From an uncultured Bacteroidales bacterium (lineage in GTDB: Bacteria; Bacteroidota; Bacteroidia; Bacteroidales; Bacteroidaceae): a DNA stretch of 35,375 bases. This document shows positions 9,530 to 34,250 of the stretch, one piece after another (position 1 is the first letter of the stretch; each line of letters opens with the position of its first letter). A model generated the notes under the pieces. That model saw only the letters and a list, made by a program, of their open reading frames with translations, made no database searches and was not told the DNA's origin. Made by a program: the position numbers and the translations under genes. The stretch lies in assembly GCA_902770725.1 (NCBI GenBank), contig CACXUA010000008.1:29202-64576 (forward strand), written 5' to 3'.

Positions 9530-9617
9530 CAACTTAACGTGTGTCGTTCAACAACTTAACGTGCCACGTTTGCCCTTACAGCGTGGAGTATCAGCCGATG
9601 CTCCACGTTGTTTTTAT
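9530..9617. repeat. 22-bp tandem repeat array D (4 units)
   Basis: Units start at 9530, 9552, 9574 and 9596. Cores CGTG, CGTG, CGTG and CACG sit at 9538, 9560, 9582 and 9604, exactly 22 bp apart. The first two units share CAACTTAACGTG. The last two have opposite cores and form the stem of the terminator at 9582-9615. A degenerate earlier unit may start at 9508. Same family as arrays at 17855, 20011, 24919, 29497 and 34125. Confidence 0.8.
9582..9615 (+). terminator. Terminator of the NfeD-SPFH operon, built from repeat units
   Basis: CGTGGAG (9582-9588) pairs with CTCCACG (9601-9607). ATC/GAT extends the stem after one mismatch, with an AGCC loop, followed by TTGTTTTT. The arms are the cores of two neighbouring 22-bp units in opposite orientation. 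Confidence 0.75.
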
Positions 9618-9649
9618 TCACGCTGCTGGCGGCGAGGGGGGAAACGATT

Positions 9650-9863
9650 TGGGACAATTGGGACAATTGGACAGTCGTTTTTTACACGCCCCCATGATAG
9701 AGAAGAGATAGATATATAGACTATATATATCTATATTAAATATTATATATTAATAATTATTATTATAATTATTATTTTTATCATTATTCTTTACTTACTA
9801 CTCTCCTACCCCTGCTTTTTCTTGTGTATAAAATTTATTGTCCCAATTGTCCCAATTGTCCCA
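9650..9863. repeat. Inverted 9-bp-repeat arms around an AT-rich tract
   Basis: The left arm 9650-9670 carries two GGGACAATT 9-mers; the right arm 9843-9863 is its perfect 21-bp reverse complement and extends to three 9-mers from 9837. The 172 nt between hold an A/T tract (about 9716-9835) of short palindromic TATATA/AATAATTATT runs. This is the only gap over 300 bases in the window (9503-9889); apart from this element it holds array D and the HIRAN promoter. The layout recalls iterons beside an easily melted region, but no origin function is shown. Confidence 0.7.
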
Positions 9864-9874
9864 GAAATTTTTTG

Positions 9875-9882
9875 TACCTTTG
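9875..9882 (+). promoter_or_regulatory. -7 box abutting the HIRAN gene
   Basis: TACCTTTG with seven bases (CAGGGCT) before the ATG at 9890, the same spacing and nearly the same linker as at the CapA-like gene. The right arm of the inverted repeat ends 11 nt upstream, so a protein on that arm would touch the promoter. Confidence 0.62.
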
Positions 9883-9889
9883 CAGGGCT

Positions 9890-11143: not shown

Positions 11144-11181
11144 AGACACACACATAACTCGCTGACAATCAGCACAAGCAC

Positions 11182-11224
11182 CCCCTATATAGGAGCTATA
11201 ATAGCCCCTATATAGGGGTTTTTT
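11182..11224 (+). terminator. Strong terminator after the HIRAN gene
   Basis: CCCCTATATAGG (11182-11193) pairs perfectly over 12 bp with CCTATATAGGGG (11207-11218). Inside, GCT/AGC can add three pairs. TTTTTT follows at 11219-11224. It separates the HIRAN gene from the promoters of the next gene. Confidence 0.9.
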
Positions 11225-11228
11225 CTTA

Positions 11229-11247
11229 TACCTTTGCCGTACCTTTG
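11229..11247 (+). promoter_or_regulatory. Tandem -7 boxes before the primase/DUF3987 gene
   Basis: TACCTTTG occurs twice, at 11229-11236 and 11240-11247, 11 bp apart, directly after the terminator T-run. The leader to ATG 11358 would be about 105-125 nt and contains a small hairpin (GAGATGC/GCATTTC, 11270-11288) and an A/T-rich end made of repeated ACAATTA units. Confidence 0.6.
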
Positions 11248-11357: not shown

Positions 11358-13643
11358 ATGCAAGAAAAAACCCAAATGGGCTTTGCCCAAAGCGTTAGAA
11401 GCAGCGTAACGCCCTGCACCCTAGAACTACTCTATGCTCAGATGGACAGCCCTCAGACTGCTAAGATATGCGCTGAGATTGCTGAAGATCTGGAGAAACT
11501 GAAACGCGGAGAAATGACTCGAGAAGCGTTCGAAACACGCAAACGCGACAAGAAGAAACAACTCCCCGTTCTGACCCCTCACGCCACCTTTACAGACGGC
11601 AATCGCTCGAACAAGACTGCCCTGCCTAGCGGACTCTCGATGTACGACATCGACCACATCCAGAACCCTCGCCTCTACTTCGAGACGAAGGTCAAGGACA
11701 GACTCTCGGAACTGGGCATCGTCATGGCCCACGAAACGCCCTCCACAGAAGGTCTGCGCCTCATCTTCGAGATGCCCAAAGGAATGAGTCTGGCAGAGGC
11801 ACAAAGGTGGATGTCCGAGCAGTTGGACGACAGCGACTACGACGGCTCTGTAAAGGACTATGCACGATGCTCGTTCATCGTCCCTCGCGCGTACCTTCTC
11901 TATATCGACGAGCAGGAACTCTGCAAGCACAGAGAAGCCGAAGTCATCAAGAACCCTGAGAACTCTGAAATCTCCGAAATCTCCGAGAACCCTGAGAACT
12001 CTGAGAACATCGATGATTCAGATCCTCTCGAGAACCTTGACCGCAACCTGCGCATCTTCGACCGTTGCCTGGCTGCTGTGGGCCTCAAGCAGGAAGACAT
12101 CGACAAAGTGGGCATCTACAACTGGCACAACACACTCGTCGCCATCCTCTCCATCGGAATCTGCCGACTCATGACTGAAGCAGAACTCAGAAGCGTGCTC
12201 AAGGTGAGGATGCCAAACTACTCGAAAGAGCAGGACTGCAAACGGCTCGTCAGCGATTTCTACAAGGACTACACACGCATGAACGCTCCTATGAGTCCGC
12301 AACTCAGGGCCATCTATGCTGAAAGCGTGACGGGCAAGAAGGACAAACCCGCAACCACCCAGGAACTGCTTGGCGAGGAACCTCCCAAACTGCCCCTGAG
12401 ACTGCCCAAACTCATCAAACTGCTCGTCTCGAAGGAACCCGACATCTACAAGCCTGCAGTCATCATGAGCGTCTTTCCTGCTCTGGGAGCCCACCTAGTC
12501 GATGTGCACTTCCCCTATGCCGACAACACCCTCCACGAAGCCACTTTCATGAACTGCGTAGTGGCACCCATGTCCTCGGGAAAGTCCTGCATCAATCGCG
12601 TCTGCGAACCCATCATGGCCGACATCAAGGCTCGCGACGACGAGAACCGCAAACGCGAAGATGCCTGGAAGGAAGAGTGTCGCTCGATGGGGGCCAACAG
12701 GCAGAAACCCAAGAGACCTGACGACCTGACCATCCAGATCATGTCGAGCGACCTCACAAACGCAGCCCTCGTCCAGAAGCTCCAAGACGCTCACGGACAC
12801 TTCCTCTACACACACATCGACGAAGTGGAACTCTTCGAGCAACTCAAAGTGAACGGCAAGGCAGGACAAATCGGCAAGATCTTCCGACTCGCCTTCGACT
12901 GCGGCTTCTACGGACAGGAACGAGTGGGCATACAAAGCGTGACAGGCAGGCCCCAAATGCGATGGAACTGGAACGCAGCCAGCACCATACAACGCAGCCA
13001 GCAGTTCTTCCGACCCATGATAGCAGACGGCACACTCTCGCGCATCAGTTTCGCCACAATCTTGACAAAACGCGGCATGCCAATACCCGTTCACGGCATC
13101 TACGACGAAGCCTTCAGCGAAGCACTCAAGCCCAGCATAGACCGACTCTGCGCAGCAAAAGGCAACATCGACCTGCCTGAAGCAAAGCGACTCATCCAAA
13201 AACTTGACAAAGAAGCCAAAGATACCGCTTGGCTCACAGACGACGAACAATACGAGAAACAAGCCTATCGAGCCGTTGTCTGCGCTTGGCTCAGAGCAAT
13301 GGTGCTCTACATCGCAGAAGGCAAATGGTCGAAGGAAATCGAAAACCTGGCAATGTGGAGCATGAAGTACGACCTTTGGTGCAAGATGCACTTCTTCGGA
13401 CAACTCCTACATGCACAAATGGCTGGCGAAGTGGTGCGGACAAGGGGACCTAAGAACATGCTCAACATGCTCCCTGACGACTTTACTGTAGAGGACATCA
13501 GGCAAGTGCGAATACGCTTGGAAAAGGACCCCGACCCCATACAGCAACTCACTATGTGGAAGCAGCGAGGCCACATCACCCAAGACGAACAAGGCGTCTT
13601 TCACAAAACACCAGCCTACCTGAAACGAAAGAAATCCTCGTAA
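11358..13643 (+). CDS. BT4734-like primase domain fused to DUF3987 P-loop domain
   Basis: A 761-aa protein. Residues about 70-185 fit the BT4734-like (VirE N-terminal) PrimPol-type domain: GLSMYDIDHI with Asp97/Asp99, STEGLRLIFEM and DGSVKDYARCSFIVPR. A short helical domain follows, then DUF3987 from about 340 with a P-loop variant APMSSGKS (403-410) and a Walker B-like THIDEVEL (485-492). This is the layout of primase-helicase proteins of mobile elements, so DNA replication or a defence/mobility role is plausible but unproven. Residues 198-218 are an acidic linker of Glu-Asn-Pro/Glu-Asn-Ser/Glu-Ile-Ser triplets encoded by a 9-bp minisatellite. No integrase, Rep or mobilisation gene lies nearby. 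Confidence 0.8.
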   Translation: MQEKTQMGFAQSVRSSVTPCTLELLYAQMDSPQTAKICAEIAEDLEKLKRGEMTREAFETRKRDKKKQLPVLTPHATFTDGNRSNKTALPSGLSMYDIDHIQNPRLYFETKVKDRLSELGIVMAHETPSTEGLRLIFEMPKGMSLAEAQRWMSEQLDDSDYDGSVKDYARCSFIVPRAYLLYIDEQELCKHREAEVIKNPENSEISEISENPENSENIDDSDPLENLDRNLRIFDRCLAAVGLKQEDIDKVGIYNWHNTLVAILSIGICRLMTEAELRSVLKVRMPNYSKEQDCKRLVSDFYKDYTRMNAPMSPQLRAIYAESVTGKKDKPATTQELLGEEPPKLPLRLPKLIKLLVSKEPDIYKPAVIMSVFPALGAHLVDVHFPYADNTLHEATFMNCVVAPMSSGKSCINRVCEPIMADIKARDDENRKREDAWKEECRSMGANRQKPKRPDDLTIQIMSSDLTNAALVQKLQDAHGHFLYTHIDEVELFEQLKVNGKAGQIGKIFRLAFDCGFYGQERVGIQSVTGRPQMRWNWNAASTIQRSQQFFRPMIADGTLSRISFATILTKRGMPIPVHGIYDEAFSEALKPSIDRLCAAKGNIDLPEAKRLIQKLDKEAKDTAWLTDDEQYEKQAYRAVVCAWLRAMVLYIAEGKWSKEIENLAMWSMKYDLWCKMHFFGQLLHAQMAGEVVRTRGPKNMLNMLPDDFTVEDIRQVRIRLEKDPDPIQQLTMWKQRGHITQDEQGVFHKTPAYLKRKKSS
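11951..12013 (+). repeat. In-frame 9-bp minisatellite in the primase/DUF3987 gene
   Basis: Seven contiguous 9-mers: GAACCCTGA, GAACTCTGA, AATCTCCGA twice, GAACCCTGA, GAACTCTGA and GAACATCGA. An 18-bp block recurs exactly at 11951-11968 and 11987-12004. The period equals three codons, so length changes keep frame. It encodes the linker between the primase and downstream domains. Confidence 0.85.
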
Positions 13644-13655
13644 CTCTCTAAAAAT

Positions 13656-13743: not shown

Positions 13744-13786
13744 TACAAAACACCCCACCCTACTCTCGGAGGGAGAGCAAGGTGGG
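13744..13786 (-). terminator. Terminator of the sdhCAB operon
   Basis: On the minus strand CCCACC pairs with GGTGGG (13754-13759 and 13781-13786) and CTCTC with GAGAG inside, followed by GTGTTTTG. It begins about 20 nt after the sdhB stop. Confidence 0.75.
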
Positions 13787-13807
13787 ATGATGATTATGAT
13801 GCGTCCT

Positions 13808-14566
13808 TTAATCTGCCAGTTTTGCGCAGATGAACTCACGGTTCAGGCGAGCGATGTTCGAGATGGTCTCGCACTTCGGGCAGACAGCCTCGCAAGCACG
13901 TGTGTTGGTGCAGTTGCCAAAGCCCAGTTCGTCCATCTTCGCTACCATTGCCTTCGCACGCTTCGCTGCCTCTACCTTACCCTGAGGAAGCAGAGCAAGC
14001 TGGCTCACCTTCGAGCTGACGAAGAGCATTGCAGAGCCGTTCTTGCAGGCTGCCACGCAAGCGCCGCAACCGATGCAGCTGGCGCAATCCATAGCCTCGT
14101 CGGCATCTTCCTTCGGAATCAGAATAGCGTTTGCATCCTGAGCCTGACCTGTGCGAACCGTTGTGTAACCACCAGCCTGCATAATCTTGTCGAAGGCATT
14201 GCGATCGACCATGCAGTCCTTGATGACTGGGAAACCAGCCGAGCGCCAAGGCTCAACGGTGATGGTCTCGCCGTCCTTGAACTTACGCATGTAGAGCTGA
14301 CAGGTTGTAGCTCCGCGCTCAGTCTTGCCATGAGGCGTTCCGTTGATGTAGAGCGAGCACATACCGCAAATGCCTTCGCGACAGTCGTGGTCGAACACGA
14401 AAGGCTCCTTGCCCTCATTGATGAGCTCCTCGTTCATGATGTCGAGCGCCTCAAGGAATGAGGTGTCGTCAGGGATGTTCTTCAACTCATGCGTGTCGAA
14501 GTGACCCTTGTCCTTAGGACCGTTCTGCTTCCAGAACTTTATCGTAACACTTATATTCTTAGCCAT
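13808..14566 (-). CDS. sdhB: Succinate dehydrogenase/fumarate reductase iron-sulfur subunit
   Basis: A 252-aa subunit carrying electrons between the flavin and quinone sites of complex II. It holds the [2Fe-2S] ligand set CREGICGMC plus a later Cys (ATTCQ), then the ferredoxin-like set [14 protein letters not shown] and [14 protein letters not shown] for the [4Fe-4S] and [3Fe-4S] clusters. Last gene of the operon, 5 nt after sdhA. In anaerobic Bacteroidales this complex usually works as fumarate reductase in the succinate pathway; the sequence alone does not fix the direction. Confidence 0.96.
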
Positions 14567-14571
14567 AATTG

Positions 14572-16554
14572 TTAATTCTTATAGTTACGTGTCTGTACCT
14601 TAATGATCTCATAATTGAGGGGCTCTTTGACGAGTTCGGGTGCTTTGTCGTCGCTGCCTTGATAGTCCCAGCAGCCAACATAGAAGAAGTTCTCGTCGTC
14701 GCGCTTTGCCTCGCCTTCCTCGGTCTGATGCTCCTCGCGGAAGTGGCCACCACAGCTCTCTTCACGATGCAGGGCATCGTAAGCTACGAGCTCGCCCATC
14801 AGGATGAAGTCGCGCAGATGGATGGCCTTGTCGAGCTCGACGTTGAGGCCTTCCTTGCTTCCAGGAATGAAGAGGTTGGTGTCGAACTCCTTACGAAGCT
14901 CCTTGAGCAGCTTCAAGCCTTCCTCCAAGCCTTCCTTCGTGCGACCCATGCCGACGTGCTCCCACATGATGTGGCCAAGCTCCTTGTGGATGGAGTCGAC
15001 AGAGCGCTTGCCCTTGATGTTCATCAGACGGTCAATCTCCTTCTCGACAGCCTTCTCCGTTTCAGCGAACTCAGGCAGGTCGGTTGAGAGACGTGGCCAG
15101 ATAGCCTGGTCTGCAAGGTAGTTCTGAATGGTGTAAGGCAGTACGAAGTAGCCGTCAGCAAGTCCCTGCATGAGGGCAGAAGCGCCAAGACGGTTTGCTC
15201 CGTGGTCTGAGAAGTTGCACTCGCCGATAGCGAAGAGGCCAGGGATGGTGGTCTGCAACTCGTAGTCAACCCAAACGCCGCCCATCGTATAGTGGATGGC
15301 AGGGAAGATCATCATGGGATAGTAGTAATCGACGCCGTCCTTTGTGCAAGCCTTCTCGCCTGGATTGACGTCGGTTATCTCCTCGTACATATCGAAGAGG
15401 TTGCCATAACGCTGACGAATCTCGTCGATGCCGAGGCGCTGGATGCTCTCCGAGAAGTCGAGGAACACGGCCAGACCGGTGTTGTTCACGCCGAAGCCCT
15501 TGTCGCAACGCTCCTTGGCTGCACGGCTGGCTACGTCGCGAGGAACGAGGTTACCGAATGCCGGGTAGCGGCGCTCCAGATAGTAGTCGCGATCCTCTTC
15601 AGGAATCTCATAGCCCTGCTTTGTTCCTGCCTGCAATGCCTTTGCGTCCTCGAGCTTCTTCGGAACCCAGATACGACCATCGTTACGCAGCGACTCAGAC
15701 ATAAGAGTCAGCTTCGACTGCTTGTCGCCATGCACAGGAATGCAAGTGGGATGAATCTGAACGTAAGAAGGATTAGCCATCATTGCGCCCTTGCGGAAGC
15801 ACTGAACGGCTGCTGTGCAGTTACAACCCATAGCGTTCGTCGAGAGGAAGTAGGTGTTGCCATAGCCGCCAGTAGCGATGACGACAGCATTTGCGCTGAA
15901 GCGCTCCAGCTTGCCAGTCACGAGGTTCTTGGCGATGATGCCACGAGCACGACCGTCAACAATCACTACATCCTCCATCTCGTAACGGGTGAACAGCTTC
16001 ACCTTGCCTCTTTGAACTTCCTTACTCAAAGAAGAGTAAGCACCGAGAAGCAACTGCTGGCCTGTCTGACCCTTAGCATAGAAGGTACGGCTTACCTGAG
16101 CGCCACCGAACGAACGGTTTGCCAGCATGCCGCCATACTCACGAGCGAAGGGTACGCCTTGTGCCACGCACTGGTCGATGATGTTGTTCGACACTTCGGC
16201 CAGACGATAGACGTTGGCTTCGCGAGCACGATAGTCACCACCTTTCACTGTATCATAGAAGAGGCGATAAACGCTGTCGCCATCGTTCTGATAGTTCTTG
16301 GCTGCATTGATACCACCCTGAGCTGCGATAGAGTGAGCGCGACGGGGCGAGTCCTGAATGCAGAAGTTATATACATTGAAGCCCATCTCGGCAAGGGAAG
16401 CGGCAGCACTTGCACCAGCAAGACCTGTACCTACTACGATGACGTCGAGCTTCAGCTTGTTCTTTGGGTTCACCAGACGCTGGTGAGCTTTATATTCTTT
16501 CCATTTCTCAGGCACTGGACCTGCAGGAATCTTCGAATCTAATACTTTTGCCAT
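14572..16554 (-). CDS. sdhA: Succinate dehydrogenase/fumarate reductase flavoprotein subunit
   Basis: A 660-aa flavoprotein, full length for the Bacteroidetes/Bacillus-type enzyme. The Rossmann motif [19 protein letters not shown] lies at about 40-58. [18 protein letters not shown] contains the His that normally holds FAD covalently. [29 protein letters not shown] and [18 protein letters not shown] belong to the substrate and FAD sites. It interconverts succinate and fumarate on the cytoplasmic face of the membrane. It lies between sdhC and sdhB and is co-transcribed with them. Confidence 0.97.
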
Positions 16555-17459: not shown

Positions 17460-19427
17460 ATGGAGTTCAAATATGATGTCGTAGTCGTCGGTGCTGGCCA
17501 TGCTGGATGCGAGGCTGCAACGGCTGCCGCAAAACTCGGAGCGAAGACTTGTCTCATTACGATGGACATGAACAAGATTGCCCAAATGTCGTGCAATCCT
17601 GCCATCGGTGGCATTGCCAAAGGCCAGATCGTCAGGGAGATTGACGCGCTGGGAGGTCACACAGGCGAGGTGACGGACGCAACAGCCATTCAGTTCCGTA
17701 TGCTGAACCGCTCGAAAGGACCTGCTATGTGGAGCCCAAGAGCTCAATGCGACAGGGCAAAATTCATCTGGACCTGGCGCGAAATACTCGAGAACACTCC
17801 CAATCTTTCTATCTGGCAAGACCAAGTCGTAGAACTCCTCACGGAGGAACTTCCAAACGCGGCCTGCCGAGTTGCCAAACATGGCGTGCCGAATTGCCAA
17901 ACGCGGCGTGCCGAGTTGACCGATGTGGCGTGCTGGGTTGCACAACGTGGCGTGCTGGGTTTGCGAACTATGCTGGGAGTGACTTTCCATGCACCCTGCG
18001 TCATCATCACGGCTGGCACGTTCCTGAACGGACTGATGCACATCGGACGCACCAAGATTCCAGGTGGTCGTTGTGCTGAACTGCCGAGCCTCCATCTCTC
18101 TGAGAGCATCGCAGCTTGCGGCATAACTGTTGGCCGCATGAAGACTGGCACTCCTGTTCGCATAGACGGACGTTCCGTAGATTTCTCCCAAATGCAAAGG
18201 CAGGACGGAGAGACCGACTTCCACAAGTTCTCCTACATGGGCGAACCGCGTCAGCTGCCACAACTCCCGTGCTGGATTACCTACACAAACGAGGCTGTTC
18301 ACGAGCGTTTGCGTGCTGCCCTACCCGACTCTCCGCTCTATAACGGGCAGATTCAGAGCATCGGTCCGCGTTACTGCCCAAGCATCGAAACAAAGCTCGT
18401 CACTTTCTCCGAACGTACTGAGCATCAGCTATTTCTGGAGCCAGAAGGCAGTTCGACAAGGGAACTCTACCTGAACGGCTTTTCGAGTTCGCTCCCCATC
18501 GACGCTCAGATTGAAGCGCTGAAACTGATTCCTGCTTTCCGCAACCTGCAGATCTACCGTCCAGGCTATGCCATCGAATACGATTACTTCGACCCAACGC
18601 AGCTTCGACACTCGCTGGAATCGAAGATTGTCAATGGTCTCTTCATGGCTGGACAAGTGAACGGAACAACTGGCTACGAGGAGGCTGCAGGCCAGGGACT
18701 GGTTGCGGGAGTAAATGCAGCTCGCAAGATTGCCGGACTCGAGCCGTTTTTCATGCGAAGGGACGAGTCTTACATTGGCGTCCTCATTGACGATCTGGTA
18801 ACGAAAGGCGTGGATGAGCCGTACAGAATGTTCACCTCGAGGGCTGAATATCGCATCCTGCTTCGTCAAGATGATGCGGACGCCAGACTCACAGAACGCA
18901 GCTACGAAATGGGCTTAGCAAGCCGAGAACGTTATGACCATTGGCTACGCAAGAAGCAGACAATCAGCGAGATAGAGAATCTCTGCAGCAACTTCAGCGT
19001 GAAAGCCGCGCTGATCAATCCAGGCCTGAAGGCTCTGGGAAGCGAGCAGCTGCAACGAGGCTGCAAACTCATCGATCTGGTGATGCGACCACAGCTCAAC
19101 CTGACGAACCTCGCAACACTCATCCCTACCCTATCCGACAAGCTGAACAGCATCAAAGACCGTCGCGAAGAAATCATCGAGGCTGCCGAAGTTCGCATCA
19201 AATACAGCGGATACATACGCAGGGAGAAGGAAATAGCAGAGAAGATTCAACGCCTCGAAAACATCCGCATCAAGGGACGTTTCCAATACGAGGACATCAA
19301 ATCGCTCAGCACAGAAGCCCGTCAGAAACTCACGAAAATAGATCCTGAGACGATGGCGCAGGCCAGCCGAATCCCTGGAGTCAGCCCCAGCGACATAAAC
19401 GTCCTGCTGGTCATGATGAATCGATAA
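17460..19427 (+). CDS. mnmG: tRNA uridine-34 5-carboxymethylaminomethyl modification enzyme, with repeat insertion
   Basis: With MnmE, MnmG (GidA) modifies wobble uridine 34 of certain tRNAs, using FAD. Visible: FAD loop VVGAGHAGCEAA (9-20), SCNPAIGGIAKGQ with the first conserved Cys45, GPRYCPSIE with the second, and a C-terminal helical domain ending IPGVSPSDINVLLVMM. At 655 aa it exceeds the usual 620-630. The excess lies at residues 131-166, where the normal short turn before LRTMLGVTFHA is replaced by sequence from five 22-bp repeat units (17855-17964). The frame stays intact on both sides, so the gene looks functional. A parS-like palindrome follows the stop. Confidence 0.95.
   Translation: MEFKYDVVVVGAGHAGCEAATAAAKLGAKTCLITMDMNKIAQMSCNPAIGGIAKGQIVREIDALGGHTGEVTDATAIQFRMLNRSKGPAMWSPRAQCDRAKFIWTWREILENTPNLSIWQDQVVELLTEELPNAACRVAKHGVPNCQTRRAELTDVACWVAQRGVLGLRTMLGVTFHAPCVIITAGTFLNGLMHIGRTKIPGGRCAELPSLHLSESIAACGITVGRMKTGTPVRIDGRSVDFSQMQRQDGETDFHKFSYMGEPRQLPQLPCWITYTNEAVHERLRAALPDSPLYNGQIQSIGPRYCPSIETKLVTFSERTEHQLFLEPEGSSTRELYLNGFSSSLPIDAQIEALKLIPAFRNLQIYRPGYAIEYDYFDPTQLRHSLESKIVNGLFMAGQVNGTTGYEEAAGQGLVAGVNAARKIAGLEPFFMRRDESYIGVLIDDLVTKGVDEPYRMFTSRAEYRILLRQDDADARLTERSYEMGLASRERYDHWLRKKQTISEIENLCSNFSVKAALINPGLKALGSEQLQRGCKLIDLVMRPQLNLTNLATLIPTLSDKLNSIKDRREEIIEAAEVRIKYSGYIRREKEIAEKIQRLENIRIKGRFQYEDIKSLSTEARQKLTKIDPETMAQASRIPGVSPSDINVLLVMMNR
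17855..17964 (+). repeat. 22-bp tandem repeat array F inside mnmG (5 units)
   Basis: Units start at 17855, 17877, 17899, 17921 and 17943. Positions 9-12 read CCTG once, then CGTG four times. Units share AAAC, GG before the core and GC after it, as in the intergenic arrays. Because 22 is not a multiple of three, units are read in rotating frames: unit 1 (AACRVAKHGV) and unit 4 (VACWVAQRGV) give a 22-residue protein repeat. The arms are GC-rich instead of TTAA, which keeps all frames free of stops. Confidence 0.88.
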
Positions 19428-19473: not shown

Positions 19474-20004
19474 ATGAATAACGAATATCTATTGAAAAAC
19501 CTGCGAAATGTGCCTGATTTCCCAGTGCCTGGAATACAGTTCAAGGACGTTAGTACGCTGTATAAAAATCCAAAGTGCCTGAAGATAATGGTCAACGAAC
19601 TGTATGACCTTTACAAGGACAAAGGCATAACAAAGGTCGTGGGCATTGAGAGCCGAGGCTTTGTAGTTGGGGCCGCATTGGCAGTCAAACTGGGAGCTGG
19701 GTTCGTGATGTGTCGTAAGCCAGGCAAACTCCCTGCAGAAACGCGCAAGGAAAGCTATATGAAAGAGTACGGCAAGGACACCATCGAGATTCACACAGAT
19801 GCAATCGAAGAGAAGGATGTCGTGCTGCTCCACGACGATCTCCTCGCTACAGGAGGCAGCATGAAAGCAGCCTACAACCTCGTCAAGCAGTTCAATCCAA
19901 AGAAGATATACATCAACTTCATCATCGAGCTGACCATCGAAGGACTGGATGGCAGGTCTGTTTTCGACAAGGACGTAGAGTTAACAACACTCCTGAAGAT
20001 ATAA
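19474..20004 (+). CDS. apt: Adenine phosphoribosyltransferase
   Basis: A 176-aa type I phosphoribosyltransferase making AMP from adenine and PRPP in purine salvage. N-terminal NVPDFPVPGIQFKDVSTL, GIESRGFVVGAALA and RKPGKLPAE belong to the family. The PRPP loop is VVLLHDDLLATGGSMKAA. I start at ATG 19474, which gives MNNEYLLKNLRNVPDFP as in close family members. An upstream GTG at 19435 is in frame but lies inside the parS-like palindrome, so it is unlikely to be a start. The 22-bp repeat array begins 6 nt after the stop. Confidence 0.94.
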   Translation: MNNEYLLKNLRNVPDFPVPGIQFKDVSTLYKNPKCLKIMVNELYDLYKDKGITKVVGIESRGFVVGAALAVKLGAGFVMCRKPGKLPAETRKESYMKEYGKDTIEIHTDAIEEKDVVLLHDDLLATGGSMKAAYNLVKQFNPKKIYINFIIELTIEGLDGRSVFDKDVELTTLLKI

Positions 20005-20010: not shown

Positions 20011-20142
20011 AAACTTAACGTGGTTAAATTCCAAACTTAACACGCTTAGTTTGTCAATTTAACACGCTTAATTGACGAATTAAGCACGCCTAATTTGAAA
20101 TTTAAGCACGCCTAATTTAAGGACTTAACGTGGGACAATAGA
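20011..20142. repeat. 22-bp tandem repeat array B (6 units) between apt and uvrC
   Basis: Units start every 22 bp from 20011 to 20121. Cores at positions 9-12 read CGTG, CACG, CACG, CACG, CACG, CGTG. Arms are TTAA- or TTAAG-like, for example TTAAGCACGCCTAA in units 4 and 5. The array fills nearly the whole apt-uvrC gap and its sixth unit runs into the uvrC ATG at 20142, so it forms the uvrC translation start region. Confidence 0.88.
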
Positions 20143-21980
20143 TGGAGAAAAGTGCAAAGGAAATACTGAAAGCCTATTTAATGGGGATTGTAAGCAATCT
20201 GCCTGAGTGCCCGGGCTGCTATCAGTATCTCGATGAGACTGGTACCATCATCTATGTCGGCAAGGCAAAGAACCTGAAGCGACGTGTTTACTCGTATTTT
20301 TCGAAAGAACACGATAATCGAAAGACAGCTATTCTCGTGTCTAAGATACGGGATATCAAGTACATAGTCGTCAAGACGGAAGAGGATGCTCTCCTGCTTG
20401 AAAACAACCTCATAAAGCAATGGTCGCCTCGTTATAACATCCTGCTCAAGGACGGCAAAACGTATCCAAGCATCGTTGTAACCAATGAATACCTGCCACG
20501 CATCTTCCAAACTCGCAAGATAGACAAGCGTCTTGGCACTTATTTTGGCCCTTACAGCCACGTTCCCACGATGTATCTTCTGCTCGAACTTATTGGGAAA
20601 CTGTATCCTTTAAGGCGTTGCAGAGAAATTATAACAGCCAATTCCATCGAAAATGGCAAGCATAAAGAGTGCCTGGAGTACCATATAAAGAACTGCAAAG
20701 CACCATGTACAAAGCGACAAAGCCACGAAGAATACATGGAATATATCGCTGAAGCAAAAGAAATCCTGAAGGGAAACACGGCACAACTGGAGCGGCAAAT
20801 GCTCCAACGAATGCAGGAATATGCTGCAAAACTACAGTTCGAAGAGGCAGAAGCAATTAAGCAAAAGTACATTCTTCTCGAGAATTATCGCAGCAAGAGC
20901 GAGGTCGTAAGCAACTCCCTCCATAATATAGATGTCTTTAACATCGAGAACAATGAAAAGGTGGCCTACATCAACTACCTTCACGTCACAAACGGTTGCA
21001 TCACGCAGGCCTTTACCTTTGAGTATGCAAAGCGCCTCGATGAGCCAGATGACGAGTTGCTTGCAGCAGGAATCATAGAGATGCGACAACGTTACCACAG
21101 TGAAAGTAAGGAAGTTATCGTACCGTTTCCCGTGGAACATTTAGGGGAGGATTTGCTCATCACAGTGCCTCAAAAGGGAGACAAAAAGAAGTTACTTGAG
21201 CTTTCCAGACTGAATGTCTTGCAATATAAGAAGGATAGGATTAGTCAGAGCGACAAGTTAAATCCTGAACAAAAGCAGGTGCGTTTGATGAAGGAACTGC
21301 AAGAAGCACTTCACCTCCCTACCCTACCGATGCAAATTGAATGCTTTGACAACTCGAACATCAGTGGTACGGATGCAGTTGCTGGCTGCGTCGTCTTCAA
21401 GAAATGCAGGCCAAGTAAGCAGGATTACCGCAAATACATAATAAAGACTGTGAGCGGGCCTGATGATTATGCCAGCATGCAGGAGGTGGTTCGACGGCGT
21501 TACAGTCGTATGATAGAAGAAGGAAAGCCCCTACCCGACCTGATAATTACGGATGGAGGGCGTGGACAAATGGAGGTCGTAAGAGAGGTTGTTGAGGATG
21601 AACTGCAGCTATCTATACCGATTGCGGGTCTTGCAAAGGATGACAAACACAGGACAAACGAACTGCTCTTTGGATTTCCTCCACAAACGATAGCAATGAA
21701 AACGGATTCTCCGCTGTTTCGTCTGCTCACGCAAATACAGGACGAAGTGCACAGATATGCCATTACATTCCATCGCGACAAACGCAGCAAGCATCAAATT
21801 GCAAGCATTCTGGACAACGTTCCTGGCATTGGACCGAAAACAAAGACGTTGTTGCTGAACAGATTTCACAGCGTGAAGCGAATCAGGGAGACAGAAGAAG
21901 ATGAACTTGCAGCTGTGATTGGAGCCTCGAAAGCTAAGGTTTTGAAGGAATTCCTTGCAGATGCCGATAAAAAGTCGTAG
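20142..21980 (+). CDS. uvrC: Excinuclease ABC subunit C
   Basis: UvrC makes both incisions in UvrABC nucleotide excision repair. The 612-aa protein has a GIY-YIG nuclease domain (about 22-100; GCYQYLDETGTIIYVGKAKNLKRRVYSYF), a Cys-containing region (RRCREI, HIKNCKAPC), a UVR motif (about 205-240; QEYAAKLQFEEAEAIKQKY), the RNase H-like second nuclease (IECFDNSNISGTDAVAGCVVF, DLIITDGGRGQM) and a helix-hairpin-helix end (LDNVPGIGPKTKTLLLNRF). I use ATG 20142, directly after the repeat array; ATG 20181 is an alternative that still keeps the GIY-YIG motif. No purine-rich ribosome site is seen in the repeat. First gene of a run with dtd, a MazG-like gene and deoC. Confidence 0.95.
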   Translation: MEKSAKEILKAYLMGIVSNLPECPGCYQYLDETGTIIYVGKAKNLKRRVYSYFSKEHDNRKTAILVSKIRDIKYIVVKTEEDALLLENNLIKQWSPRYNILLKDGKTYPSIVVTNEYLPRIFQTRKIDKRLGTYFGPYSHVPTMYLLLELIGKLYPLRRCREIITANSIENGKHKECLEYHIKNCKAPCTKRQSHEEYMEYIAEAKEILKGNTAQLERQMLQRMQEYAAKLQFEEAEAIKQKYILLENYRSKSEVVSNSLHNIDVFNIENNEKVAYINYLHVTNGCITQAFTFEYAKRLDEPDDELLAAGIIEMRQRYHSESKEVIVPFPVEHLGEDLLITVPQKGDKKKLLELSRLNVLQYKKDRISQSDKLNPEQKQVRLMKELQEALHLPTLPMQIECFDNSNISGTDAVAGCVVFKKCRPSKQDYRKYIIKTVSGPDDYASMQEVVRRRYSRMIEEGKPLPDLIITDGGRGQMEVVREVVEDELQLSIPIAGLAKDDKHRTNELLFGFPPQTIAMKTDSPLFRLLTQIQDEVHRYAITFHRDKRSKHQIASILDNVPGIGPKTKTLLLNRFHSVKRIRETEEDELAAVIGASKAKVLKEFLADADKKS

Positions 21981-23802: not shown

Positions 23803-24039
23803 AAAAGTGAAAGGGTGAAAAAGTAAACAGGTGAAAAAGGACGAGGTGCGAACGGGCGGAACATTTTTCAGCAGTAAAAACGTCATTTTACCTTCACGAG
23901 AATCGATTATTTGAAGCCTCGGGGCTTGGCGGACGAAAAGAAACGATTCTCAGAGGCCCATTTTGAGCCTAAACAGTTGAACTAAAGAGATTTAAGCCCT
24001 AAAATAGTGAATAGGAAATTTTTTAAAATAGAAAAAGAA
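23803..24039 (+). other. Structured leader/spacer between deoC and the OmpA-family gene
   Basis: The first 50 nt are a purine-rich stutter of GTGAAAAAG-like units. Then GAGAATCG (23898-23905) pairs with CGATTCTC (23944-23951), enclosing a second perfect hairpin AAGCC-TCGG-GGCTT (23914-23927). AGGC/GCCT can form a third helix after 23953. No good -7 box is seen. It could be the deoC terminator region or a structured 5' leader; it fits no riboswitch class I know. Confidence 0.5.
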
Positions 24040-24867
24040 ATGAAGAAAAGGAGTCTTTTGATGCTTGGAATGGCATGTTTGCTGCTCTCATCGTGTGTGG
24101 TTAGCAAGAAGAAGTTCGAGATTGCCGAAGCCGGCCGTTTGGCTGCACTCTACAGCCGCGACAGTCTGGCCGACTTGCTTGGGATGACCAGGACGGACTA
24201 TGCCATTCTCGACGAGTTGCGGAACGGCTTGTTGAACGACACAGCCTTGCTCAAGAACAGCATCCGCAACTATCAGCAGTTGCTCGCCACAGGTCAGAAC
24301 GAAAATCAGAAACTCAGTGCAAACCTGAAGGACCGCGAGAAGACGATTGCCGAACTGCAGAAGATGATCGACCAGCAGAACAAGAAGGTGAAGGACCTGC
24401 TCAGCAGCGTGAAGGATGCCCTGCTTGGATTCAGCAGCGACGAACTGACCGTGCGCGAAGAAGGCGGCAAGGTCTATGTGGCGATGAGCGACAAGCTCCT
24501 GTTCGAATCGGGCAAAGCCATCGTGAACGAGCAGGGTAGGGCAGCGCTAGGCAAGCTGGCACAAGTGCTCAACAAACAGACCGACATCGACGTCTATATC
24601 GAGGGACACACGGACAACGTGCCCATCAAGACAGCCGTCTTCCAGGACAACTGGGACCTCAGCGTCATTCGTGCCACATCGGTTGTGCGCATCCTGACCG
24701 AGACCTACGGCGTCAATCCCCTGCAGATACAGCCATGCGGTCGAGGCGAGTTCAAGCCTGTCGATGTCAACACCACGCCCGAGGGCAAAGCCCGCAACCG
24801 TCGTACGGAGATCATCATGGCTCCGCGCCTCGACAAACTGTTCAAGATGCTCGAAGAGAGCAAGTAG
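24040..24867 (+). CDS. OmpA-family peptidoglycan-binding lipoprotein
   Basis: A 275-aa lipoprotein: signal sequence with lipobox LLSSC (Cys19), a long coiled coil at about 60-125 (NQKLSANLKDREKTIAELQKMIDQQNKKVKDLLSSVKD) and a C-terminal OmpA/MotB domain from about 145 (LLFESGKAIVNEQGRAAL, YIEGHTDNVPI, LSVIRATSVVRIL, NRRTEIIMAP). The domain binds peptidoglycan, so the protein probably tethers the outer membrane to the wall. I start at ATG 24040 because the lipoprotein signal then begins MKKRSLLML; an in-frame GTG at 24007 would add 11 residues ahead of it. Its transcript likely ends at the repeat-made hairpin at 24919. Confidence 0.9.
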   Translation: MKKRSLLMLGMACLLLSSCVVSKKKFEIAEAGRLAALYSRDSLADLLGMTRTDYAILDELRNGLLNDTALLKNSIRNYQQLLATGQNENQKLSANLKDREKTIAELQKMIDQQNKKVKDLLSSVKDALLGFSSDELTVREEGGKVYVAMSDKLLFESGKAIVNEQGRAALGKLAQVLNKQTDIDVYIEGHTDNVPIKTAVFQDNWDLSVIRATSVVRILTETYGVNPLQIQPCGRGEFKPVDVNTTPEGKARNRRTEIIMAPRLDKLFKMLEESK

Positions 24868-24918
24868 CTGTTTCAAAGAGATATAGGCCTTTAGGTAAAG
24901 AACACTAATGAGTCGGAA

Positions 24919-24960
24919 AAGATGGCACGCCGCGTTTGACATTTCGGCGTGCCATCTTTG
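24919..24960 (+). terminator. Repeat-derived hairpin after the OmpA-family gene
   Basis: AAGATGGCACGCCG (24919-24932) and CGGCGTGCCATCTT (24945-24958) are perfect reverse complements around a 12-nt loop; one more A-T pair extends the stem. Only a short CTTTG follows, so termination may be partial. Confidence 0.6.
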
Positions 24961-25006
24961 TCAACTTGGCACGCCATCTTTCGAGGTGCGGCACGCAGCG
25001 TTTGAC
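24919..25006. repeat. 22-bp tandem repeat array E (4 units)
   Basis: Units start at 24919, 24941, 24963 and 24985, with cores CACG, CGTG, CACG and CACG. Arms are GC-rich (ATGGCACGCC, CGGCGTGCCAT), like the copy in mnmG and unlike the TTAA-rich arrays. Two units end in CGTTTGAC. Units 1 and 2 have opposite cores and form a perfect 14-bp stem. Confidence 0.85.
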
Positions 25007-25085
25007 GAAGAGCTATACCTCTTTTGTTAAGGCAACTTTTCGTGCAGTTTTTCGCCTAAGACATCGCTATGTCGAAAATTATTTG

Positions 25086-28267: not shown

Positions 28268-29497
28268 GTGGTACTGAATTACATCTGGATTGGCTTCTTT
28301 GCCATTGCGTTTCTCATCGCAATAATACAACTTTTCTTAGGCAACACCGACGTCTTCCCTGCTATAATGAACAGCACGTTCGACAATGCGAAGACCGCTT
28401 TCGAGATATCCATCGGCCTGACAGGCGTGCTTTCCCTATGGATGGGCGTCATGAAGGTTGGCGAAAAGGGCGGCCTGGTCAACGTCATAGCGCGTTGGCT
28501 GTCACCCCTCATGGTGCGTCTCTTTCCCGAAATCCCCGCAGGTCATCCTGTCTTCGGACACATCTTCATGAACTTCAGTGCTAATATGCTGGGACTCGAT
28601 AACGCTGCTACTCCGCTGGGACTCAAGGCGATGGAGGGCATGCAGGAACTCAACAAGCAGAAGGACACCGCAACGAACGCGATGATTATGTTCCTTGTGT
28701 TGAACACCAGCGGCTTGACCTTGATACCAGTCGGCGTGATGACTTATCGCGCGGTGGCTGGTGCGGCACAGCCCACGGACGTCTTCATTCCCATCCTCAT
28801 CGCGACAGCCATTGCCACGCTGGCAGGCATGATTATCACAAGCCTGTACCAACACATCAACCTCTTCAATCGAACCATCATGGCGTTCGTGCTCGGCCTT
28901 TGCCTCGTGGTAAGCGGCGTAATCTGGATTGGCACGCAGGTGGACCAGGAAACCATGAACAAGTGGAGCACCGTAGTAGCCAACGTCTTGCTTTTCAGCA
29001 TCATAATGGCCTTCATTTGGGCTGGTGTGCGAAAGAAGATAAACGTCTATGAAGCCTTTGTTGAAGGTGCGAAAGGCGGCTTTGATACTGCCATCCGCAT
29101 CATCCCCTACTTGGTTGCAATCCTCGTAGCCATCGGTGTCTTCCGTGCTTCGGGAGCGATGGACTTCATCATAGACGGTTTGGGCAAGTTCGTTGAAATG
29201 CTTGGTGGCAACGCAGACTATGTTGCGGCACTTCCAACAGCCATCATGAAGCCCCTGTCCGGCAGCGGAGCCCGCGGCATGATGGTCGATGCGATGCAGC
29301 AGTACGGCCCCGATTCCTTCATCGCCCGCCTGTCGTGCATCTTCCAGGGAGCCACCGATACGACCTTCTACATACTGGCCGTTTACTTCGGCAGCGTAGG
29401 TATCCGCAAGACGCGCCACGCCGTTATGGCTGGCCTCCTGACCGACATCTGCGGCGTCATTGCAGCTATTGGTGTAGCAGCCATCTTCTTTGGATAA
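28268..29497 (+). CDS. Fused SpmA/SpmB-like nucleoside-recognition (Gate) membrane protein
   Basis: A 409-aa polytopic protein with about ten hydrophobic helices. The first half resembles spore maturation protein A (STFDNAKTAFEISIGLTGVLSLWMGVMKVGEKGG, NMLGLDNAATPLGLKAMEGMQELN); the second resembles SpmB (GAKGGFDTAIRIIPYLVAILVAIGVFRASGAMDFI, LPTAIMKPLSGSGARGMM, GATDTTFYILAVYFGSVGIRKTRHA). Bacteroidetes carry this fusion without sporulating; its substrate is unknown, though Gate-domain relatives transport nucleosides or ions. The start is GTG 28268, giving VVLNYIWIGF. The 64-nt gap after ruvB is low-complexity (AAATGGTTAAATGATTAAAT). Its stop codon is the first edge of repeat array A. Confidence 0.87.
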   Translation: MVLNYIWIGFFAIAFLIAIIQLFLGNTDVFPAIMNSTFDNAKTAFEISIGLTGVLSLWMGVMKVGEKGGLVNVIARWLSPLMVRLFPEIPAGHPVFGHIFMNFSANMLGLDNAATPLGLKAMEGMQELNKQKDTATNAMIMFLVLNTSGLTLIPVGVMTYRAVAGAAQPTDVFIPILIATAIATLAGMIITSLYQHINLFNRTIMAFVLGLCLVVSGVIWIGTQVDQETMNKWSTVVANVLLFSIIMAFIWAGVRKKINVYEAFVEGAKGGFDTAIRIIPYLVAILVAIGVFRASGAMDFIIDGLGKFVEMLGGNADYVAALPTAIMKPLSGSGARGMMVDAMQQYGPDSFIARLSCIFQGATDTTFYILAVYFGSVGIRKTRHAVMAGLLTDICGVIAAIGVAAIFFG

Positions 29498-29628
29498 AAC
29501 TTAACGTGCTTAGTTGGTAAATTAGGCGTGCTTAATTGGCAAACTTAACATGCTTAATTGGCAAACTTAACGTGCTTAATTTGCAAACTTAACGTGCCTA
29601 ATTGGCAAACTAAGCACGCCTAAATTTC
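29497..29628. repeat. 22-bp tandem repeat array A (6 units) between convergent genes
   Basis: Six uninterrupted units start at 29497, 29519, 29541, 29563, 29585 and 29607, with cores CGTG, CGTG, CATG, CGTG, CGTG and CACG. The consensus is AAAC, TTAACGTGCTTAA, then TTGGC. The array runs from the last base of the SpmAB stop codon into the gluQRS stop codon (29627-29629), so the gap is entirely repeat. TTAGGCGTGCTTA in unit 2 and its exact reverse complement in unit 6 can pair over 13 bp. Confidence 0.92.
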
Positions 29629-30523: not shown

Positions 30524-30524
30524 A

Positions 30525-31523: not shown

Positions 31524-31555
31524 CATAAAAAAGTGCTTCTTTCATATTTTTTCCG

Positions 31556-31563
31556 TACTTTTA
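31556..31563 (+). promoter_or_regulatory. Probable -7 box of polA
   Basis: TACTTTTA matches TAnnTTTG at all but the last base, 22 nt before ATG 31586. A purine-rich AAAGGACAGAAAAAG follows and can serve as ribosome-binding site. Confidence 0.45.
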
Positions 31564-31585
31564 CAACATAAAAGGACAGAAAAAG

Positions 31586-34111
31586 ATGCAGAAACTCTAT
31601 TTACTGGATGCTTACGCACTGATTTATCGTGCTTATTACGCCTTTATTAAGAACCCGAGAATCAACTCGAAGGGCGAAAACACGTCAGCAATCCTTGGCT
31701 TTGTCAACACGCTGGAAGAGGTCATCTCGAAGGAAGCTCCAACACATCTGGGCGTTGCCTTCGACCCGCACGGCGGCACGTTCCGACACGAGGCCTACCC
31801 CGAGTACAAAGCCCAACGCGAGGAAACGCCCGAAGCCATCAGGTTTGCTGTACCCATCATCAAGGATATCTTGGCCGCCTACCACATCCCCGTGCTCGAA
31901 GTTCCTGGCTTTGAGGCGGACGACGTCATCGGCACGTTGGCTCATCAGGCTGACCTGAAGGGCATAGACACCTTTATGATGACGCCCGACAAGGATTTCG
32001 GACAACTCGTCACAGAACGCATCAAGCAGTACCGACCTGCTGTGGGAAGAAACAGCGAGGCAGAGATTCTGGGCATCGAGGAAGTGAAGAAGAAGTGGGG
32101 CTTGCAGTCACCCAGCCAAGTCATCGATATGTTAGGACTGATGGGCGACAGCGTCGATAACATCCCTGGCTGCCCGGGAGTGGGCGAGAAGACAGCTCAG
32201 AAACTCATCGAGGAGTTCGGCAGCATCGAAAATCTGCTGTCATCGACGGACAAACTGAAGGGCGCGCTCAAGGAAAAGGTAGAGGGAAACGTCGAGAAAA
32301 TCAAGCAAAGCAAGTGGCTGGCCACTATCAATCAGGAGGTTCCAATCAGCCTCGACATGGAACTTCTCGAGTTGAAAGAGCCCGATAGGGACAGGTTGCA
32401 GGATATCTTCAAACGCCTCGAGTTCCGTCAACTCTTGAATAAAAGAAGCCCCCTCCCTGCCTCTCCGAAGGAGGAGGAGGAGAGCCAACCTGCCAAGAAC
32501 AACGATGGTTCCTTGCAGCTTGACCTGTTTGGTGCAGCTCCGGAAAGCAAACCTACTGCCTCGACAAAAAAGGTCGAGCAACCACAACAACTTGACCTCT
32601 TCGACCAGCCAAGCAGCCCAATTCCTGCTACTTCGAAGGTTGAAGAACCTGCCGAACCATTCGTCGTGAAAGATGGGGTAGTTGTTGGTCACAACCTGAA
32701 GGCTAATTGGAAAGAGCTCAAGGCACAGCATCTCACCGAACTCCCCATGTTCGATACGGAGATTGCACACTATATCCTGCACCCCGAAATGCGCCATTAT
32801 CTGGATTATCTGCTGTCCATCTACGGCTGCAAGAACCTCTGCGAACTCAAACAAAGCCTGGAGGAAGAACTCAAGAAGGAAGGTTTGTGGAGCCTCTTCA
32901 CAGACATAGAGATGCCACTCATGCCTGTCCTCGCAGAGATGGAGGAGGCTGGCGTAATGATTGACACTGAGGGACTTAAGGAGACCAGCAGGCTGTTCAC
33001 GGAGCAGATGCTGGCTTTGGAACAAGAGATACACAGCTTGGCTGGCCTGAACTTCAATATAAGCAGCCCGAAGCAGGTGGGCGAAGTGCTCTTCGAAACA
33101 CTCAAACTCGACTCAAAAGCCAAGAAGACCAAGAAAGGGCAATACGTCACAAACGAAGAGGTGCTTGAGGCCCTGAAACGGAAACACCCGATTGTCGGCA
33201 AGATTCTAGAGTATAGAGGACTGAAGAAACTGCTGGGCACATACATAGACGCCCTACCTGGACTCATCAATCCACAGACCGGACACATCCATACTTCATT
33301 CAATCAGACTGTTACGGCAACGGGTCGTCTGTCGTCGTCGAACCCCAACCTGCAGAACATTCCCGTTCGCGATGCCCAGGGAAAAGAGGTGCGCAAGGCG
33401 TTCATACCTTATCCGGGACAGCTTTTCTTCAGCGCCGATTACAGCCAAATAGAGCTGCGCATTATGGCTCACCTCAGCAAAGACGAGAACTTGATTGAGG
33501 CTTTCCTGCAAGGAAACGATATCCATCAGGCAACAGCCGCTAAAATCTTCAAGAAGCCGCTTGAAGAAGTCACTCCAGACGAAAGACGGAAGGCCAAGAC
33601 GGCTAACTTTGGCATCATCTACGGCATCAGCGCCTTTGGTTTGGCAGAAAGGATGGGTGTATCTAGGACGGAAGCCAAACAGCTTATAGATGAGTACTTT
33701 ACGACCTATCCTGGCGTGAAGGCCTACATGGACAAGAGCATCGAAATGGCTCGCGAAAAGGGTTTCACGGAGACCATCTTCAAGCGTCGTTGCCAGTTGC
33801 CCGACATCAACTCGAACAACTCGGTGGTTCGCGGTTATGCAGAAAGGAATGCAATCAATGCCCCTATTCAGGGTTCGGCAGCCGACATCATCAAGATTGC
33901 CATGATTCGCGTCAGCCGGCGCATGAAAGAGGAGGGTTTGAAGTCGAAGATGATCCTGCAGGTGCACGACGAACTCAACTTCTCGGTTCTGCCTGAGGAG
34001 AAGGAGAAGTTGCAAGCCTTAGTGATAGAAGAGATGCAAGGTGCAGCACAGCTCAGCGTCCCCCTCATCGCCGACTGCGGCTGGGGCACCAACTGGCTCG
34101 AAGCACATTAA
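31586..34111 (+). CDS. polA: DNA polymerase I lacking a functional 3'-5' exonuclease
   Basis: An 841-aa family A polymerase (E. coli: 928). The 5' nuclease/flap domain spans about 1-285 (FEADDVIGTLAH, TPDKDFGQLV, GLMGDSVDNIPGCPGVGEKTA). Polymerase motifs are intact: ADYSQIELRIMAHLS (617), RRKAKTANFGIIYG (667) and QVHDELNFSV (792). Between them the proofreading domain is cut down. There is no Exo I DxE motif, the Exo II site reads VVGHNLKANWKEL without its Asp, and the Exo III YxxxD motif is absent before IEMPLMPVL. A linker (286-360) holds two copies of QLDLF, at 311-315 and 335-339, a match to the sliding-clamp binding pentapeptide. Confidence 0.96.
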   Translation: MQKLYLLDAYALIYRAYYAFIKNPRINSKGENTSAILGFVNTLEEVISKEAPTHLGVAFDPHGGTFRHEAYPEYKAQREETPEAIRFAVPIIKDILAAYHIPVLEVPGFEADDVIGTLAHQADLKGIDTFMMTPDKDFGQLVTERIKQYRPAVGRNSEAEILGIEEVKKKWGLQSPSQVIDMLGLMGDSVDNIPGCPGVGEKTAQKLIEEFGSIENLLSSTDKLKGALKEKVEGNVEKIKQSKWLATINQEVPISLDMELLELKEPDRDRLQDIFKRLEFRQLLNKRSPLPASPKEEEESQPAKNNDGSLQLDLFGAAPESKPTASTKKVEQPQQLDLFDQPSSPIPATSKVEEPAEPFVVKDGVVVGHNLKANWKELKAQHLTELPMFDTEIAHYILHPEMRHYLDYLLSIYGCKNLCELKQSLEEELKKEGLWSLFTDIEMPLMPVLAEMEEAGVMIDTEGLKETSRLFTEQMLALEQEIHSLAGLNFNISSPKQVGEVLFETLKLDSKAKKTKKGQYVTNEEVLEALKRKHPIVGKILEYRGLKKLLGTYIDALPGLINPQTGHIHTSFNQTVTATGRLSSSNPNLQNIPVRDAQGKEVRKAFIPYPGQLFFSADYSQIELRIMAHLSKDENLIEAFLQGNDIHQATAAKIFKKPLEEVTPDERRKAKTANFGIIYGISAFGLAERMGVSRTEAKQLIDEYFTTYPGVKAYMDKSIEMAREKGFTETIFKRRCQLPDINSNNSVVRGYAERNAINAPIQGSAADIIKIAMIRVSRRMKEEGLKSKMILQVHDELNFSVLPEEKEKLQALVIEEMQGAAQLSVPLIADCGWGTNWLEAH

Positions 34112-34124
34112 ACAGCTAATTATA

Positions 34125-34250
34125 AAACTAGGCGTGCTTAGTTGGAGAATTAAACGTGCTTAGTTCGAAAAGATCACGTGGATAATTTGAAAAGTTCACG
34201 TGTGAAGTTGACAAAGATCACGTGTGAAGTTGACAAAGATCACAGGCATT
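34125..34250. repeat. 22-bp tandem repeat array C (6 units) between convergent genes
   Basis: Units start at 34125, 34147, 34169, 34191, 34213 and 34235 (the last cut by the antiporter stop). Cores read CGTG in the first five, and in units 3-5 the core is extended to the palindrome CACGTG. Units 4 and 5 differ at two bases only. The array begins 13 nt after the polA stop and reaches the antiporter stop codon (34250-34252), so it fills the gap between the two convergent genes. Confidence 0.88.

Follow-up and report, generated by a model that had tools for sequence, protein, structure and literature searches.

Arrays of inverted 11-bp bricks along the chromosomes of gut and rumen Bacteroidales: a constant geometry in changing letters

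Six tandem arrays of 22-bp units occur in a 35,375-bp stretch (the window) of the genome of an uncultured Bacteroidales bacterium (family Bacteroidaceae; GenBank assembly GCA_902770725.1, contig CACXUA010000008.1). Such arrays are found every few thousand bases in a group of gut and rumen Bacteroidales, where the letters vary between species and the geometry is kept. Dyads recur every 11 bp; the 22-bp unit is therefore two inverted 11-bp bricks. The comparisons described here demonstrate this geometry, a register common to relatives, covariation, conserved places, spacing more even than expected by chance, an array that adds no length to the gene that holds it, and the gain and loss of whole units. 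These features suggest a chromosome-wide DNA element that is recognized via shape and spacing, not via sequence.

The window is bases 29202-64576 of contig 8 in a draft genome (G000, the host) of 2.26 Mb in 134 contigs, 80.6% complete; by UvrC (98%), its closest named record is the uncultured Prevotellaceae bacterium isolate RUG606. Array A (9525-9617), with two good and two degenerate units, is the weak member of the six and begins 26 bp past the stop of a gene at 8549-9502 (+). Array B (17853-17964; five units) lies in frame within mnmG (gidA; 17460-19427, +). Array C (20011-20142; six units) fills the gap between an apt-like gene (stop at 20004) and a uvrC-like gene (start at 20142). Array D (24918-25006; four units) is 3′ of a gene at 24007-24867 (+) and has a degenerate edge dyad next to it (about 25008-25026). 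Two arrays fill convergent gaps: array E (29497-29628; six units) lies between gene ends at 29497 (+) and 29627 (-), and array F (34125-34250; five full units and a broken one) between a polA-like gene (stop at 34111, +) and a gene ending at 34250 (-). The names mnmG (Pfam GIDA), M16 peptidase and GSCFA (the last two introduced below) are from Pfam, and the apt-like, uvrC-like and polA-like names were read from translations alone.

A sequence-only reading of the window had called attention to the six arrays, and all are present where it placed them, although it did not mention that array B is inside the mnmG coding sequence. In self-match at 22 bp each array exceeds all 1000 of its own dinucleotide shuffles (0.50-0.80 vs. 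0.25-0.27), and each exceeds all 1000 for the 11-bp dyad lattice as well. CACG/CGTG words, the core described in that reading, form 24 pairs at a distance of 22 bp in the window, against a mean of 2.8 for distances of 5-89 bp, the next three peaks being at 44, 66, and 88 bp. The step of two helical turns and the likeness of units within an array were upheld. The core generally occupies unit positions 9-12, as had been stated, except in array D, where it begins one base earlier. The departures from the core had been assigned to the wrong arrays: CATG is at 29549 in array E, CCTG at 17863 in array B, and the broken last unit, CAGG, at 34243 in array F.

The proposal that the element is genome-wide is supported in the sampled host stretches, where a scan does better than in shuffled sequence: 411 kb gave 57 chains of at least three cores, a few of them off-phase duplicates or chance, vs. 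0-1 in five shuffles. The whole host sample comprises 811,197 bases in 40 stretches, the first 20 partly picked for matches and the next 20 mostly by contig number; because of the former selection, array density is biased upward. The sample holds 82 CACG-core arrays with 367 units once eight chains are dropped; three of the 82 are off-phase duplicates and one is a chance run (L154:16276, in a coding gene resembling lpxB). The centre of the unit is AC or GT in 355 of the 367 units and AT or GC in 3, an excess that is partly by construction because the search for chains used CACG/CGTG and tolerated single exceptions. (Crossover sites of a serine recombinase, suggested by the asymmetric AC/GT centre, were considered.) The units are mixtures of 8-bp half-sites that draw on a small set of words (AACTTAAC, AACGCGGC, AAGATGGC, and others). 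When letters are left out altogether, and only a self-match of at least 60% over 66 bp at one distance is required, 104 sites in the 811 kb have a 22-bp step, whereas every other step from 17 to 28 bp has 0-2.

The core itself does not define the element, contrary to what the sequence-only reading supposed, since families lacking it keep the 22-bp step in the host, in its sister species (G005), and in other relatives. The host has CCTATAGG and ACATGT arrays and the sister has CTGCAG arrays. By a crude word count, 97 of 108 host arrays are CACG-type, 6 TATA-type, and 5 other; for the sister the count is 26, 8, and 6 of 40 arrays, with one of its 20 stretches (L318) omitted. Different letter families can even join in register within one array. 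The relatives examined were 80 uvrC loci from genome records together with stretches of other genomes of the genus. Their arrays have a step of 22 bp (21 in a few) and other letters: CCCCTATAGGGG, and GTATAC, CTGCAG, TTAA, ATAT, and CCGG centres, among others. In close relatives, 22-bp arrays occupy the same places as in the host, with different letters. In all seven genomes of the genus from which 49-811 kb were sampled, 22 bp was the commonest step. No 22-bp site was found in the same-genus samples G011 and G014 (20 kb). No 22-bp self-match site turned up in the 254 kb sampled from nine genomes belonging to other families within the order, although a looser dyad finder gave two in one of them (G039).

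Two side observations concern the step. Arrays with a 21-bp step, two turns of B-DNA, occur in relatives L050, L053, L057, L060, L070, L081, L093, and L216. In L107, whose record is titled uncultured Phocaeicola sp. (another genus), four arrays in 22 kb have one consensus, AGCG-nnn-ATAT-nnn-CGCT.

Arrays inside genes, where the protein supplies fixed anchors, allow the register to be compared between species. Most relatives compared carry an array with other letters at the mnmG place of array B. In 19 of them (L029-L047) the segment between the anchors is 78, 81, 99, 120, or 144 nt long (2, 1, 6, 2, and 8 cases), and the array changes length by near-whole units. Measured from the 3′ anchor, 18 of 20 sequences, the window included, agree in dyad register to the single base; L037 and L045 differ, and two of the 18 (L040 and L041, with two units only) fail to beat their own shuffles. 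As the 3′ register is constant while the 5′ offset shifts with loop length, it is the edge of the array that restores the reading frame. In an M16 peptidase gene, 14 sequences (L219-L232) from genomes of at least 74% identity all carry a lattice above at least 96% of shuffles, in loops of 147 nt (11 cases) or 168 nt (3 cases). All 11 loops of 147 nt have a common register modulo 11, L220 being a three-way tie. By a stricter measure, 12 of the 14 share the register from the 3′ anchor; the exceptions are L220, displaced by one, and L229, whose units are asymmetric. The register analysis covers all 30 M16 loops, and only one of the 16 from the outgroup (L247) has a lattice.

The register is accompanied by covariation. 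In the 11 M16 loops, pairing in the core dyads is 0.63 vs. 0.44 when permuted, and in the spacer dyads 0.59 vs. 0.40; in nine mnmG loops (the off-register L037 included) the values are 0.66 vs. 0.48 and 0.57 vs. 0.43. None of 2000 permutations reached the observed values in either gene. When the registers were slid by 3-5 bases, pairing was no higher than in their permutations, although in one side measure, extra pair types with mnmG slid by 3, just 85 of the 2000 permutations attained the observed value. In these loops the central pair is complementary in just 0.16 of cells and the brick midpoint in 0.37.

A rival explanation is that the arrays act in the transcript, as RNA hairpins serving as terminators, in 3′ end protection, or in pausing. 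The 3′ locations of arrays agree with this, and the coding strands of mnmG and M16 show a slight excess of G-T over A-C mismatches (ratio 0.82 vs. 0.60 from composition). The arrays also fold better (-0.336 per nt) than dinucleotide shuffles (-0.233) or arrays with right arms permuted genome-wide (-0.290). However, the energy is unchanged (-0.333) when right arms are permuted within an array, the arms are non-complementary in most units of some arrays (L018:8558, L024:13156), and an Rfam search of the window gave no match. The arrays of mnmG, M16, and GSCFA are not terminators, since they are inside coding sequence. We regard the RNA explanation as improbable.

The places of the arrays are conserved. 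Of 20 uvrC loci (L029-L048), several of which end before one of the three places compared, 16 showed an array at the mnmG place, 11 at the apt-uvrC place, and 11 at the place of array D. The apt-uvrC place looks empty in L033, and there is no array there in L034, L037, L038, L043, and L046 either; as a separate observation, these last five have in common a near-identical palindrome, GTTGCGTTG(C/T)CAACGCAAC. In the host, few arrays lie between divergent genes and most are close to the 3′ end of a gene: gaps of at least 80 bp have 6 arrays per 67 divergent, 17 per 44 convergent, and 43 per 121 tandem gaps, a few duplicate arrays included. Fifteen arrays were scored inside open reading frames (ORFs), several of these being mechanical ORFs or N-terminal extensions and one the L154 chance run. 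The gene-class counts, as well as the set of 3′-type gaps used below, rely on mechanical ORFs and are approximate.

The arrays are also spaced too evenly for random placing. The distances between host arrays, pooled over stretches, have a coefficient of variation (CV) of 0.53; when arrays are placed at random it is 0.89, and the lowest value in 2000 draws is 0.66. In a profile scan, 4 of 67 distances were below 2.5 kb, while the null mean was 20.3 and its minimum 9 of 5000. Compared with random choice among 179 3′-type gaps of at least 80 bp, the CV is 0.49 vs. 0.69 (minimum 0.53 of 5000; 81 distances, with a mode of 5-6 kb). The even spacing is repeated in the sister (27 distances, L318 included, p = 0.0064).

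Could the arrays be a mobile repeat, a MITE, REP/BIME, or insertion of the Rickettsia type, kept apart by target immunity? The many dispersed copies and the one empty site, in L033, speak for it. So do the arrays in coding sequence, which resemble Rickettsia palindromic elements; these are inserted units of about 100-150 bp, likewise palindromic and tolerated in frame in protein genes. Unlike them, the present arrays form a tandem lattice, and the one in a GSCFA gene adds no length. Of 23 GSCFA orthologues tried, 21 could be aligned (L268 and L270 were unmapped, and L272-L278 are outside the set). In all 21 the segment is 41 aa long, and four of these (L249, L250, L251, and L253) have the array. 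Because the length is the same with and without it, the simplest origin of the array is by substitutions within the existing segment. Common ends are lacking too: the top 10-mer of the 70-bp flanks occurs in 4 of 77 arrays. With arrays at the same places in relatives as a further argument against insertion, we consider a mobile repeat quite unlikely, and the dispersed seed from which local amplification had been proposed to start is doubtful for the same reasons (conserved places, no common ends, no added length in GSCFA).

The REP/BIME, MITE, phage/plasmid, curvature, and terminator readings all fit poorly. REP/BIME sequences are described as short palindromes of alternating orientation, with many dispersed, mostly intergenic copies and with RAYT transposases; gyrase and IHF binding to BIMEs has been reported (PMC2817692, PMC3733652). 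The arrays are like them in alternating orientation (11-bp bricks), dispersal, and copy number. They are unlike them in having neither fixed letters nor a GTAG-type tag, and in their exact 22-bp step, conserved places, even spacing, and coding array without added length. The RAYT family (Y1_Tnp, PF01797) had no match in G000, G005, G008, and G012; it had matches in 5 of 19 genomes of the genus searched, 3 above the cut-off, all of these genomes being incomplete drafts. The Porphyromonas MITE that the sequence-only reading mentioned is probably BrickBuilt of P. gingivalis, described as a 23-nt tandem unit with leader, tail, and terminal inverted repeats, present in 19 copies of one sequence and always intergenic (PMC4596501). 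BrickBuilt, too, is made of spacer-free tandem units of about two helical turns in Bacteroidales. Nevertheless the arrays do not match it, as they have no terminal inverted repeats, leader, or tail in common.

The nearest element in setting is PINSR of the Prevotella intermedia group, a 188-bp repeat for which 177-184 intergenic copies per genome, about three-quarters of them at places common to two strains, no terminal inverted repeats, and no known function are reported (PMC4755523). It differs, as far as its description goes, in being one 188-bp sequence family for which the section describing it reports no 22-bp step or dyads (PMC4755523). None of the titles among the literature matches listed was of a paper on arrays such as these, and a term search of the main text of the RepRanger survey (PMC12306157) did not find Prevotella named.

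Other candidates were set aside. The units are contiguous and not separated by unique spacers, which does not fit CRISPR (judged from repeat layout; cas genes were not searched). As to mobile vectors, neither plasmids nor phages gave a match to array E, and viral contigs gave none to two 20-mers taken from units. Intrinsically bent DNA, in which a two-turn step would add up local bends, is suggested by the step itself (21 bp in some relatives) and by one of four other array types tried, GGTATACC, which is strongly bent in a wedge model. In the same model, however, 65 host arrays are less bent than their shuffles (25.4 vs. 35.1), and we give this explanation very little credence.

How the letters change is seen best between the host and its sister, where 25 orthologous array sites were compared, a few of them repeats of a Rep locus (see below). 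Some arrays are near-identical and many are replaced, in flanks that are mostly 90-99% alike. Five of the 25 differ by exactly one 22-bp unit, by both length and alignment (C4:4699, C11:18774, C11:39777, C12:2143, and C14:15979); at a sixth, C13:10042, the alignment indicates a one-unit difference with an uncertain end. The unit gain and loss for which the sequence-only reading proposed to look exist between these sister species. At C3:7275, units have come to resemble a neighbour, and two centres have changed orientation, GT to AC. According to one paper (PMC8604942), template switching makes the arms of inverted repeats alike and inverts the spacer; hairpin stems and loop inversions are discussed in the same connection in another (PMC8794818).

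These observations make a purely mutational or selfish origin a serious rival, if one we hold to be unlikely. Template switching and 22-bp slippage would extend and homogenize short quasi-palindromes, with no binder and no use. Much follows readily from such a cycle: arrays indifferent to letters, an array made in GSCFA without added length, mosaic half-sites, copying between units, the flips at C3:7275, and single-unit gain and loss at five sites and perhaps the sixth. It would also fit the presence of both AC and GT centres with few of AT or GC (3 of 367, partly by construction), and the described capacity of template switching to homogenize arms and invert spacers (PMC8604942, PMC8794818). 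It leaves unexplained the conserved places and the over-even spacing, a single 11/22-bp step across unrelated letters, and the absence of 22-bp self-match sites from the nine genomes of other families. The mutational cycle, in short, explains the letters well, and not the places or the spacing.

A function at the level of DNA is argued because the geometry outlives the letters, the register is common, and the places are even and conserved. Our preferred explanation, held tentatively, is that the arrays are a chromosome-wide binding lattice for a putative chromosomal protein. Each array is a row of 11-bp bricks in alternating orientation, with a dyad per helical turn and a pattern that repeats every 22 bp. 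The simplest reader would be a dimeric protein that covers 11-bp bricks on one face of the helix. More broadly, a putative dimeric or oligomeric DNA-binding protein, or a small family of them, might bind cooperatively with a loose or fast-changing preference for letters; the sequence-only reading had also proposed a cooperatively binding protein, which is plausible. Places about 5-6 kb apart might be sites of chromosome organization, for domain anchoring, topology, or packaging, and selection would be the cause of their even spacing. Where there is no free gap nearby, the array may be placed in a tolerant protein loop. The letters could be rewritten via unit slippage and hairpin template switching, the latter of which could flip the AC/GT centre too.

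Several points weigh against such a lattice. Several letter families per genome, and even per array, sit oddly with a single protein that reads sequence. In the host, the excess of arm-to-arm match within a unit is modest: 0.55-0.59 at inner variable positions, vs. 0.47-0.49 when an arm is compared with others in its array and 0.39-0.43 when arms are drawn at random. The covariation permutations ignore relatedness, for which the slid controls alone account. At least one 22-bp site is present in 16 of 17 uvrC loci scored singly among L030-L046 but in only 25 of the 59 more distant ones among L048-L108, and several 22-bp arrays of the more distant relatives lack dyad symmetry. The spacing test is weak in two further genomes, whose samples are too small (G008, 7 distances, p = 0.044; G012, 5 distances, p = 0.10). 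Finally, no family of DNA-binding paralogues stood out in 699 sampled ORFs (about one-third of the genome), and the sole lead, a Rep_3 protein, is 100% identical in host and sister and is found in only 26 of 81 genomes of the genus.

That protein was rejected as the switch of letters, being conserved although many host and sister arrays differ. It is probably the initiator of a second chromosome. Its gene (L013:11072-12577, -) and a ParA-like gene (14416-15303, +) are accompanied by several 22-bp repeat families, at 12883-13010, 13040-13130, 13514-13650, and 13760-13880, and the locus is likely to be a second-chromosome origin with iterons. Plasmid iterons bound by Rep_3 initiators are tandem sites of about 22 bp, or two turns. 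The arrays are unlike such iterons in lying around the chromosome, in being mostly dyad-symmetric, and in having many letter families. The second chromosome of P. intermedia is described with a Rep_3 gene and no iterons near it (PMC4755523).

Other repeats lie near some arrays. Past array A, an AT-rich stretch has on its two sides, at 9649-9670 and 9837-9863 of the window, a 9-bp repeat (TTGGGACAA) and inverted copies of it (ATTGTCCCA). Separate 9/18-bp repeats are found at L037:14614-14798 and 18221-18441 (GCTATAGAG-like) and at L035:18490-18640 and 20935-21086.

We propose, again as a tentative view and a shade less readily than the lattice itself, that the arrays belong to a class of chromosomal elements that geometry, and not sequence, defines: a two-turn lattice of inverted 11-bp bricks, at conserved and evenly spaced places, with a register kept to the single base across a clade while the letters are replaced. 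We rate the element as new in kind, because it lacks the sequence identity that defines known repeat families, though it is set apart from PINSR by description only. Since bacterial repeat families are normally recognized by shared letters, an element of geometry alone would be missed by ordinary searches. If the class is real, some protein machine would have to recognize dyad symmetry and spacing, or else have a letter code that shifts from one sister species to the next and takes hundreds of sites along. A functional lattice would point to a new chromosome-organizing system among gut and rumen bacteria of an abundant group, and to a rare case of a code change at hundreds of sites between sisters. 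If the arrays are mutational, they would offer a natural setting for the study of template switching powerful enough for protein loops to be rewritten by it. The sister pair described here makes either reading testable.

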